Positions 1 to 8,308 of a stretch of 37,083 bases of DNA are shown piece by piece. Position 1 is the first letter of the stretch; each line of letters begins with the position of its first letter. The translations under genes were made by a program, and so were the position numbers. The notes under the pieces are model-generated. The model was not told the origin of the DNA and ran no database searches. It saw nothing but the letters and a program-made list of their open reading frames with translations. The stretch comes from a virus. The stretch is taken from the IMG/VR virus record IMGVR_UViG_3300030108_002677, positions 1 to 37,083 of that record; one strand, given 5' to 3'.

Positions 1-560
1 GCGTTAAGGTCGCTTTCCATGGCGTTTACATACCCAGCATTTTCTAAATCCTCATAGCTGTCGAAGATTCGTGCATGGCGATCCGTTGCGTAATCTATCA
101 TGTCATCTCGTGTGCCGCCTTCGCTGAATATGATATCGTAGTTGTCAGGAATATCAACACCAATGAATAGAGGGATAGACTTCGTATAAGAGTAGAACTT
201 TACACCTGGCAACCTTTTGGCTATTTCTATCCACTTAGCTAGGTATTCTTTCGAATAGTAATCGCCTGAATCATGAACCCTGAGTATATCTACTTTCTTT
301 TTCTTTATTTCTGCAATCATATCATCTACAAAGTCGTTTGACTTAGTAGCTAGATATCTAAACTGGAAAGCTGGTTTGACATTGCTCCAAGAGTATGCAC
401 CTTTCTGAGCATAGCAAAACTTTGCACAGCTCCCTGCAAATGGACAGGTGCGCTTACCGTTCTCATCTTCAAAGGCAGGTATCCCGAAGTTGAATACTCG
501 CAGTCCGATTAGCTCACTAGTCTTTTTTAGTTTACTGTTTTGTGTTATTAAATGCGGCAT
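1..560 (-). CDS. GP88-like phage protein, 3' end cut by window edge
   Basis: The frame opens at an ATG (558-560) preceded directly by an in-frame TGA and stays open to the window edge, giving 186 visible residues. Near residue 39 there is a cysteine cluster, CPFAGSCAKFCYAQKG (C39, C45, C49), followed by HDSGDYYSKEY and a FYSYTKS segment. This order (Cys-rich segment, FVDDMI, HDSGDYYS, aromatic-rich strand) matches what I recall of the phage GP88 family, named after a mycobacteriophage gene product of unknown function. The three cysteines suggest metal or Fe-S binding, which is inference. It overlaps the upstream gene by 29 bases, so the two are probably co-translated. The C-terminus lies outside the window. 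Confidence 0.72.
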   Translation of the reverse strand, partial: MPHLITQNSKLKKTSELIGLRVFNFGIPAFEDENGKRTCPFAGSCAKFCYAQKGAYSWSNVKPAFQFRYLATKSNDFVDDMIAEIKKKKVDILRVHDSGDYYSKEYLAKWIEIAKRLPGVKFYSYTKSIPLFIGVDIPDNYDIIFSEGGTRDDMIDYATDRHARIFDSYEDLENAGYVNAMESDLN

Positions 561-1204: not shown

Positions 1205-1217
1205 GATATTATTGGTT

Positions 1218-1406
1218 TTAATATTCGTATTCCTTTAATTCAATTTCGTACCATTGTTCAAAGCTTCTTAACCCAGTCCTAGCGTACAGAATACTATTGA
1301 GTGTGTCTATGCTACGCCCGTTGATATTAAATAATAAGCAAATTTCATCTTCAGTAGCTACGTTGTAGTCTACTAGATAGTCGTAAATTTCATCGATTCT
1401 ATCCAT
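1218..1406 (-). CDS. small hypothetical protein, 62 aa
   Basis: A 62-residue acidic protein, MDRIDEIYDYLVDYNVATED, continuing into EICLLFNINGRSIDTLNSILYARTGLRSFEQW. The arrangement of an acidic helix, a short linker and then a helix with NGRSIDTLNSILYARTG resembles small helical phage proteins, possibly with a helix-turn-helix-like core. The leader (TAAAAACCAATAAAG just before the ATG) matches that of the next gene, supporting the start. It lies downstream of the candidate structured RNA at 1424-1511, which would be in its 5' untranslated region if transcription enters from the right. Confidence 0.65.
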   Translation of the reverse strand: MDRIDEIYDYLVDYNVATEDEICLLFNINGRSIDTLNSILYARTGLRSFEQWYEIELKEYEY

Positions 1407-1423
1407 CTTTATTGGTTTTTAGT

Positions 1424-1511
1424 AAAAATAACAAGGCTTAGCACAGTATCGTGTACTCCTTGCACTCTGCTCCAAGTTTCCGTCCGCTTGTGCGTTCGCC
1501 TTGTTATTTCG
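1424..1511. ncRNA. candidate structured RNA with 12-bp closing stem
   Basis: Positions 1426-1437 (AAATAACAAGGC) are perfectly complementary to 1498-1509 (GCCTTGTTATTT), closing a 60-base interior. Inside, read on the minus strand, GCA/TGC plus CAAG/CTTG form one arm, and AGTACA/TGTGCT (6 pairs with one G-U, six-base loop) form a second, giving a three-way-junction shape. The interior is more GC-rich than its surroundings and no reading frame of note crosses it. On the minus strand the closing stem is followed by TTTTTACT, so it could also end transcription. It sits between a micro-ORF and the 62-residue gene. I do not recognise a known riboswitch, ribozyme core or tRNA in it; strand is uncertain. 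Confidence 0.5.
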
Positions 1512-1584
1512 TTACCATACACAACAGCATAGTAACATAATTATAACTAGTAGCGTCATTTCTACAACGCTAGGTTTGTCGACA

Positions 1585-1689
1585 TTATTGTACATCATCA
1601 AAATTAATGAGGTCGAACTCCACTCCCATATCTAGAAGCGCCTGTTGCAGTGCTAAATCTTGCACGTTTGGTAATTGGTTTTTATTCAT
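1585..1689 (-). CDS. micro-ORF, 34 aa
   Basis: ATG (1687-1689) to TAA (1585-1587) encodes MNKNQLPNVQDLALQQ followed by ALLDMGVEFDLINFDDVQ, an acidic amphipathic peptide. It starts 14 bases after the stop of the next micro-ORF upstream and shares with it a 25-base start context (see the repeat at 1685-1709 and 1815-1839). No function is recognised. The clean helix-like composition and its place in a head-to-tail series support it being translated. Confidence 0.5.
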   Translation of the reverse strand: MNKNQLPNVQDLALQQALLDMGVEFDLINFDDVQ

Positions 1690-2043: not shown

Positions 2044-2060
2044 AATATATAAAAATTTTA

Positions 2061-2082
2061 GGCACGGCTTTACACCGTGTCC
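2061..2082 (-). terminator. hairpin followed by A/T run, possible attenuator
   Basis: Read on the minus strand, GGACACGG pairs with CCGTGCC (seven pairs, one bulged A) around a seven-base loop, followed by TAAAATTTTT. This is the shape of a weak intrinsic terminator. It stands between the 71-residue gene and the first micro-ORF, 18 bases before that start codon, so it could limit read-through into the micro-ORF block. Confidence 0.45.
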
Positions 2083-2105
2083 GTTGTTATCGTGTGGTCT
2101 CCACT

Positions 2106-2127
2106 AGCCAATATATTTCAATTGGCT
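2106..2127. repeat. 7-bp perfect inverted repeat
   Basis: AGCCAAT (2106-2112) and ATTGGCT (2121-2127) are perfect complements around an eight-base spacer. Together with the hairpin at 2061-2082 it fills the 100-base gap between two leftward genes. It may be a second RNA hairpin or a protein-binding site; nothing in the sequence decides between these. Confidence 0.4.
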
Positions 2128-2143
2128 CGTATGTAATCGGCGC

Positions 2144-2359
2144 TTATGCTCTCGCTCTGCGTCTGTTGTTGCGTTGTTCGTCTGCTCGCTCAATGCGGTC
2201 AGATATCGCTACAACTTTGCGGTCAGTCGTTGCCGTTGCTCGGTTTGACTTTTGCGCCCTTGTGTTGCTGTAAGTCTTGTTAGAGTACTCACGGCGGTAG
2301 CGTCCGTCTTGCTCTGCCCGTTTGGGGTTGTCCTTGTTTATGCTTGTTAAGTATCTCAT
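2144..2359 (-). CDS. basic Arg/Asn-rich small protein, 71 aa
   Basis: A 71-residue, strongly basic protein: MRYLTSINKDNPKRAEQDGR at the start and DEQRNNRRRARA at the end. No known fold is evident; the composition suggests nucleic-acid binding. It is the first gene after the leftward promoter at 2382-2413, with a predicted leader of about 17 bases, which makes it the likely first product of the leftward block. Its GC content is higher than that of its neighbours because of CGN arginine codons. It could be spurious, but the promoter placement favours a real gene. Confidence 0.5.
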   Translation of the reverse strand: MRYLTSINKDNPKRAEQDGRYRREYSNKTYSNTRAQKSNRATATTDRKVVAISDRIERADEQRNNRRRARA

Positions 2360-5892: not shown

Positions 5893-5917
5893 AAAAGAGG
5901 GGTATAACCCCTCTTTT
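5893..5917. terminator. bidirectional intrinsic terminator
   Basis: AAAAGAGGGG (5893-5902) pairs perfectly with CCCCTCTTTT (5908-5917) around a five-base TATAA loop. The A-run before and T-run after let it work in both directions. It sits between the rightward gene ending at 5888 and the leftward gene ending at 5922, the expected place for shared termination. Confidence 0.85.
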
Positions 5918-7435: not shown

Positions 7436-8308
7436 ATGGGAACTCTTTCTGGAAATGCAATAAAAAATACTTATCAGGGTTTGCTGAAGACCTCTGATGC
7501 AGCTGCTCTAACATCCTCGTTAAAGGTTATAGAAGATGGTACTGGAGTAGATAGCGCCTTATCACTTTCTACCACTACCGTCAAAGCAGAGTCTTTACAA
7601 ATAAATACTGTAGCTGATGGATCATCTAGCACTGTTCTTGTTTGGGATAGTTCTAGTAAAACAGTTTCCAAAAGAGCCCTCCCAATATTTGATCCCATAA
7701 CAGCAACTGTTTCAGGTGCAACAAATCCTACTTTAAGAATATCTGATAGTGCAAGTAATAGCTCTTCATTTACATTTTCTGGAGGAACTGGAATTGAAGT
7801 TTCACAAGCTACTAATACAATAACGTTTTCCTCTAAAAACAAAACAACCAACACTATTACAGGGGCAACTACTTTAACAGCTGCTGATTCTGGTAAGGTT
7901 CATCTGTTAGATGCAAATGCAATAAACGGTGATACAATAACATTACCTACATGCGCAGATGGATTATACTTTAAGTTTTTATTTATTACAACAAAAGGAA
8001 CAGAGTTTAATATCGTTACAGCCAATGCTGCAGCATCGGGAACAGTAGAAAGATTTATAGGTAAGGTTGTTGTTCAGAGCACTACTGATGATCAAATAGC
8101 TGTTCAGCGTGTAACCAATACAGGTAATACATTTGACAACGATACGTTGTCTCTTGATGGAGATTCTGCAACAAGTGGTGGAGTGGAAGGTGATATAATA
8201 GAAATTTATGGGTGTACTATTTCTAGTGTAGCGACATGGGTTGTTAATGCAAGACTAACCACAACAAATGCTAACCCATCTAGTATTGCAGTAATAGGTG
8301 CTTCATAA
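7436..8308 (+). CDS. fibre-like virion protein, 290 aa
   Basis: Low-complexity Ser/Thr/Ala/Gly-rich protein. The N-terminus (MGTLSGNAIKNTYQGLLKTS) resembles starts of fibre proteins in uncultured marine phages. Residues about 70-135 are beta-repeat-like. The C-terminal half, from ITGATTLTAADSGKVHLLDA on, matches in order of elements the C-terminal domain of the protein at 25926-26744 (VTGQTNVLTAAQSGTIFTVN): a T-x-x-AxxSG start, a TLTLP strand, a FxFLFxxT-type strand and a closing strand ending in a W-V segment. It is probably a trimeric fibre or capsid-decoration module. The stop overlaps the next ATG by one base. Confidence 0.6.
   Translation: MGTLSGNAIKNTYQGLLKTSDAAALTSSLKVIEDGTGVDSALSLSTTTVKAESLQINTVADGSSSTVLVWDSSSKTVSKRALPIFDPITATVSGATNPTLRISDSASNSSSFTFSGGTGIEVSQATNTITFSSKNKTTNTITGATTLTAADSGKVHLLDANAINGDTITLPTCADGLYFKFLFITTKGTEFNIVTANAAASGTVERFIGKVVVQSTTDDQIAVQRVTNTGNTFDNDTLSLDGDSATSGGVEGDIIEIYGCTISSVATWVVNARLTTTNANPSSIAVIGAS

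Follow-up and report, generated by a model that had tools for sequence, protein, structure and literature searches.

The stretch of DNA analysed here (the window, 37,083 nt at its full length) is a virus record that carries a terminase large subunit, the nearest cultured relatives of which belong to Flavobacterium and Cellulophaga phages at no more than 48% identity; the window phage is a marine Flavobacteriia-type phage. Small genes occupy the minus strand from position 1 to ~2360; beyond them lie the structural genes, on the plus strand. The left end of the window truncates a GP88 family gene (PF17338), which was identified in the copy of the related phage L270 (98% identical to the window copy). 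Among the small genes, a structured element (class I) lies between a 27-aa frame and a 62-aa gene (Table 1). The frame belongs to an early block (1507-1708) that retains 87-93% identity across seven relatives, and a search of viral contigs for relatives of the 62-aa protein found none. AAAACC or AAAACCAATAA boxes recur in the window and in the early operons of its relatives; such a box stands within 25 nt 5' of the start codon of 23 of the 111 ORFs of at least 40 aa in these operons, versus 3.5% of random positions, and is perhaps a translation or recombination signal.

Table 1. Features of the class I locus, its surroundings and related loci. Positions are those of the window unless another record is named.
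Feature	Position	Strand	Basis or remark
GP88 family gene (PF17338), cut by left end	1-560	-	
AAAACC or AAAACCAATAA box	1209-1219	-	
62-aa gene downstream of element	1218-1406	-	no family match; in no other phage searched
AAAACCAATAA box ahead of 62-aa gene ATG	1409-1419	-	other genes of these operons have such a box too
U run UUUUU (last three P1 bases and next two)	1424-1428	-	identical in L270 and L187 (alignment)
P1 closing stem, 3' arm, RNA GCCUUGUUAUUU	1426-1437	-	perfect inverted repeat
P3, 3' side (GUGCU)	1440-1444	-	three-locus alignment
P3, 5' side (AGUAC), partner 1440-1444	1453-1457	-	two double changes in L187
P2, 3' side (GUGC)	1462-1465	-	three-locus alignment
P2b inner stem, 3' side	1469-1470	-	three-locus alignment
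P2b inner stem, 5' side, partner 1469-1470	1486-1487	-	G-C to C-G double change in L187; 2 bp, weak
P2, 5' side (GCAC), partner 1462-1465	1490-1493	-	G-C to A-U double change in L187
P1 closing stem, 5' arm, RNA AAAUAACAAGGC	1498-1509	-	perfect inverted repeat
27-aa frame MYNNVDKPSVVEMTLLVIIMLLCCCVW	1512-1595	-	read from sequence; in conserved early block
AAAACC or AAAACCAATAA box	1672-1682	-	
Third RNA, three hairpins	2047-2153	-	between 71-aa gene and next small ORF
Ordinary two-way terminator	5893-5917		between converging genes; 11-bp stem, 3-nt loop
Class II RNA	L268 8559-8642		
Class II RNA	L270 8053-8136		
Class II RNA	L225 241-322		
Class II RNA, further copies	L279, L280, L282, L283, L284, L288, L290, L291		
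Direct repeats (17-21 bp) around class II RNA	L268 8541-8661; L270 ~8035-8155		
Long-stem element	L269 6271-6355		z -8.9; in place of third hairpin of 2047-2153-type RNA
Long-stem element after 36-aa gene stop	L274 6403-6487		none at that joint in the window
tRNA T arm/acceptor end-like piece (GGCGAGGTTCGAATCCTCGGCTTGCT)	L225 ~206-249	-	right behind divergent class II copy

The sequence-only reading had described a perfect 12-base inverted repeat that encloses two further stems, and this was confirmed at 1426-1509, where the 12-nt arms AAATAACAAGGC (1426-1437) and GCCTTGTTATTT (1498-1509) are separated by a 60-nt spacer. The locus had also been called a gene-free spot, which holds for larger ORFs only: a 27-aa frame at 1595-1512 on the minus strand stops 2 nt short of the stem, and the 62-aa gene, also minus, starts 19 nt past the element. 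The inverted repeat alone is not significant and lies within chance, as perfect 12-bp repeats with spacers of 20-150 nt arise 0.63 times per shuffled 37-kb window and were present in 42 of 100 shuffles. The whole fold, unlike the arms alone, is beyond chance; its energy is -28.4 kcal/mol (z -4.5) as plus-strand RNA and -32 kcal/mol (z -5.2) as minus-strand RNA, and no shuffle reached either value. The three-way junction described here is the consensus of three homologous loci, and single-sequence minimum-energy folds keep the closing stem while pairing the interior partly differently.

No known family accounts for the element. Rfam 15 gave no match in the window at the curated gathering threshold, and at E values up to 10 it returned only CRISPR-DR22 beside the element, with 14.2 bits against the 50 required, so that the earlier description of the RNA as unassigned stands. 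ARAGORN found no tRNA or tmRNA within the window. We rejected an integron attC site, for which invariant AAC/GTT triplets are required, since L270 has AGC/GCT; the element shares with attC sites imperfect or perfect terminal repeats of the form AAC...GTT right after a stop codon, but its stem lacks a spacer or extrahelical bases and no integrase is known near it. A simple terminator scan makes no call at the core CAAGGC/GCCUUG followed by UUAUUUUUA, which is kept in all three phages, because the loop limit of the scan is 8 nt.

A strict pattern on the shared part of the element, run against 2.9 million viral contigs, recovered two relatives and zero chance hits. These are L270 (IMGVR_UViG_3300030433_001688) and L187/L072 (IMGVR_UViG_3300030090_003512). 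A covariance model built from the three sequences found no copy beyond L187 and L270 in 49 viral records, a stricter pattern was without a match in 84,980 bacterial and archaeal genomes, and blastn against cultured phages returned just 20-25 nt pieces. Each genome has a single copy in the records searched. Matches of the pattern AACAAGGC..GCCTTGTT in viral contigs were mostly chance, many of them within coding sequence. L110 and L266 were also set aside: L110 has the same arms around an unrelated interior and was picked for those arms, which makes its model score circular, and L266 is a chance match within a 272-aa gene. The class I element is thus rare, and the case for it is built on three sequences, of which two are closely similar.

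RNAalifold, applied to these three sequences, yields the same three-way junction. Across its 23 named pairs, 67 of 67 cells pair and 5 pairs are changed on both sides, an outcome matched by 1 of 500 shuffles, while slid controls had 0-1 such pairs; part of this covariation excess is expected, however, because the alignment tested also served to derive the structure, and the sample is three sequences of which two are nearly identical. The cleanest evidence for the structure is provided by the comparison of the window with L270, in which the 84-nt element has exactly three differences, all within P1 and always with pairing kept: one A-U pair has become G-C through changes on both sides, and one G-C pair has become a G.U wobble. 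Random changes in the P1 arms would preserve pairing in 1.3% of trials (P 0.013). L187 adds a U-A to U.G wobble in P1; its P3 is shorter, and P2b (2 bp) and the L187 P3 (3 bp) support the fold weakly. Pairs retained through two-sided changes identify a structured RNA maintained in evolution. The three-way junction proposed from a single sequence is therefore borne out, with compensating changes in three aligned loci and no loss of complementarity.

The RNA is the minus strand, the operon's own message, because the wobbles would be A.C mismatches on the plus strand: all cells pair as minus-strand RNA, whereas the plus strand loses 1, 2 and 2 pairs. The interior carries a further signal: 0 of its 60 positions are changed between the window and L270, whereas the coding block next to it differs at 8.1% (P 0.006), and an identical interior suggests a function beyond the ending of a transcript. 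The interior of L187 is strongly diverged.

The gene neighbourhood differs among the three phages. In each of them a start codon follows 19-21 nt behind the element, the start of which lies at distances of 2, 2 and -2 nt from a stop codon; behind the stem all three share UUUUUA and then an AAAACC box, and the sequence beyond UUUUUA differs. The window and L270 have the same 27-aa frame before the element and different genes after it, the L270 gene encoding 57-67 aa (MTQLEKASFV...). In L187 the 27-aa frame has no element behind it; the element stands instead between a 99-aa gene and a 90-aa gene (MDIKKELIEN...). A relative of the 99-aa gene is present in L270, where the gene behind it is another one and the joint lacks the element. 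Relatives retain the upstream block, and the genes behind the element are different ones in each of the three phages. An element tied to neither neighbour argues against a gene-specific leader, and the suggestion that it might be a regulatory leader for the 62-residue gene failed on the unrelated downstream genes of L270 and L187.

The operons of these phages contain other RNAs. A second type, class II, has a closing stem and two hairpins; the loops UAGGCGAAACCA and CUAUAUGGCGUG are invariant and the stems covary strongly, with 14 of 20 pairs changed on both sides (40 such cells, reached by 0 of 500 shuffles). It was found in 14 viral contigs, with one copy each in 7 of 15 records, and most copies with a visible upstream ORF lie ~2-11 nt from its stop codon. 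Class II is absent from Rfam, and its model gave a single 27-bit hit in 108 genomes of one order. Class II is a candidate new RNA family, better supported than the class I element. L270 carries both classes; its class II copy lies ~50 nt past the point that matches the left end of the window (98% identity), just outside the matching region, and the window phage may therefore carry class II too. The direct repeats around the class II copies of L268 and L270 score 19 and 16, respectively, against shuffled maxima of 12 and 11. They duplicate the 3'-terminal part of the gene upstream and resemble target-site duplications; an empty site for either copy was sought and none was found. ARAGORN made no call on the tRNA-like piece of L225. 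The first stem of the third RNA in the window covaries in ten relatives.

We tentatively favour, while granting it somewhat less than an even share of our belief, an intercistronic RNA module that would act as an attenuator or form the mRNA 3' end where the conserved early core borders on the swapped accessory genes. The comparison of loci establishes the junction and the strand, and it shows that the element sits right after a stop codon and is independent of the neighbouring genes. It probably serves as a portable unit (an mRNA end, a spacer or a small RNA) rather than as a switch dedicated to one gene. A cis-acting 3' end, attenuator or insulator is favoured because of the stop-codon place, the kept U run and the neighbour independence. 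Just past the stop codon, the minus-strand early transcript folds into the 12-bp P1 and the branches P2 and P3, followed by the U run. P1 and the U run could then make the mRNA 3' end in a fraction of transcripts, either by attenuated termination or by presenting a barrier or processing point to RNases. In that case the core genes ahead of the element would be expressed at higher levels than the accessory genes exchanged behind it, and the branched interior may add strength or bind a factor. In favour of this reading we also count L269, in which the long-stem element stands where relatives have a hairpin and then AU-rich sequence. Against it we count the 60-nt branched interior, which exceeds what a terminator needs, and the class II RNAs, which occupy similar places mostly without a U run.

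Known systems resemble the element in part. Like intrinsic (rho-independent) terminators, it has a stem right after a stop codon that is kept by compensating changes, with A-rich sequence before it and a U run after it; unlike them, it has a 60-nt branched interior with conserved sequence, the lower half of its stem is A-U rich, and the terminator scan makes no call. RNase III processing sites occur between phage early genes, as in T7. These likewise have a long stem at gene borders within an early polycistronic transcript, but the 12 bp of the element are near the lower limit and its three-way junction sets it apart. Class II RNAs share the closing stem with two hairpins, the position right behind stop codons and the occurrence of one per genome; they differ in sequence, in their invariant loops, in mostly lacking a U run and in their wider distribution.

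The closest competitor, for which we hold about a third of our belief, is a gene for a trans-acting small RNA within the early operon: P1 would be cut (e.g., by RNase III, as in pre-rRNA) or would end the transcript, and the resulting stable Y-shaped RNA would hit a host target. We place it close behind the cis-acting module because of the interior conservation and the class II parallel, as RNAs with invariant loops occupy the same kind of place. The interior sequence is kept while the stem covaries, and a single copy per genome in the records searched, together with movement between gene joints, fits such a gene; the strongly diverged L187 interior, however, does not, and a promoter of its own is not evident. 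With AAGGAG in its interior, the RNA has one candidate target in the concealed anti-Shine-Dalgarno tail of the host 16S rRNA. GGAG occurs 2-3 times per 51-60 nt versus 3.1 per kb in these operons, and AAGGAG once in both versions versus 0.39 per kb, at alignment positions that differ. Bacteroidia ribosomes sequester the anti-Shine-Dalgarno sequence (PMC9976891), and AAGGAG motifs would be odd in hosts whose ribosomes hide it; these purine motifs were noticed after the fact and constitute a lead, not a result.

Movement between joints also invites the improbable explanation of a small mobile element whose insertion sites would lie behind stop codons and whose RNA fold would be the substrate for transposition. 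The same joint is filled in the window and L270 and empty in L187, L267, L272, L273 and L276, L187 carries the element at another joint, and the class II copies of L268 and L270 have their flanking repeats; class I, when examined, has no flanking direct repeats, there are no second copies in the records searched and no recombinase tied to the element, and gene exchange through recombination explains the pattern too. More speculative by a shade is a combination of the two ideas, in which portable RNA genes behind early-operon stop codons (class I, class II, and the single L269 and L274 cases), some copies flanked by target duplications, would be mobile as RNA-coding elements and would target the host in trans, e.g., at the sequestered anti-Shine-Dalgarno of Bacteroidia ribosomes. 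Least likely of all, and by our estimate very doubtful, is a riboswitch-type leader of the downstream gene or a coding stretch. The distance of 19-21 nt to a start codon in all three phages and one minus-strand frame open through the element in the window and L270 speak for it, but three unrelated downstream genes, belonging to no single family, speak against a leader. A conserved reading frame through the region was looked for and is absent: the open frame has no shared start codon, begins after a stop in L187, where the peptide is unlike the others, and has 2 replacement changes and 1 silent change between the window and its close relative L270.

Non-coding RNAs of Bacteroidota phages are little described, and the class I element is absent from Rfam. 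Class II members are numerous enough to support a proper family entry and biochemical tests. Should such elements set transcript levels where core genes meet accessory ones, this would explain how these phages take up new genes without upsetting early expression. The compensating changes show that part of the intergenic space in these gene-dense early operons is kept as RNA structure.
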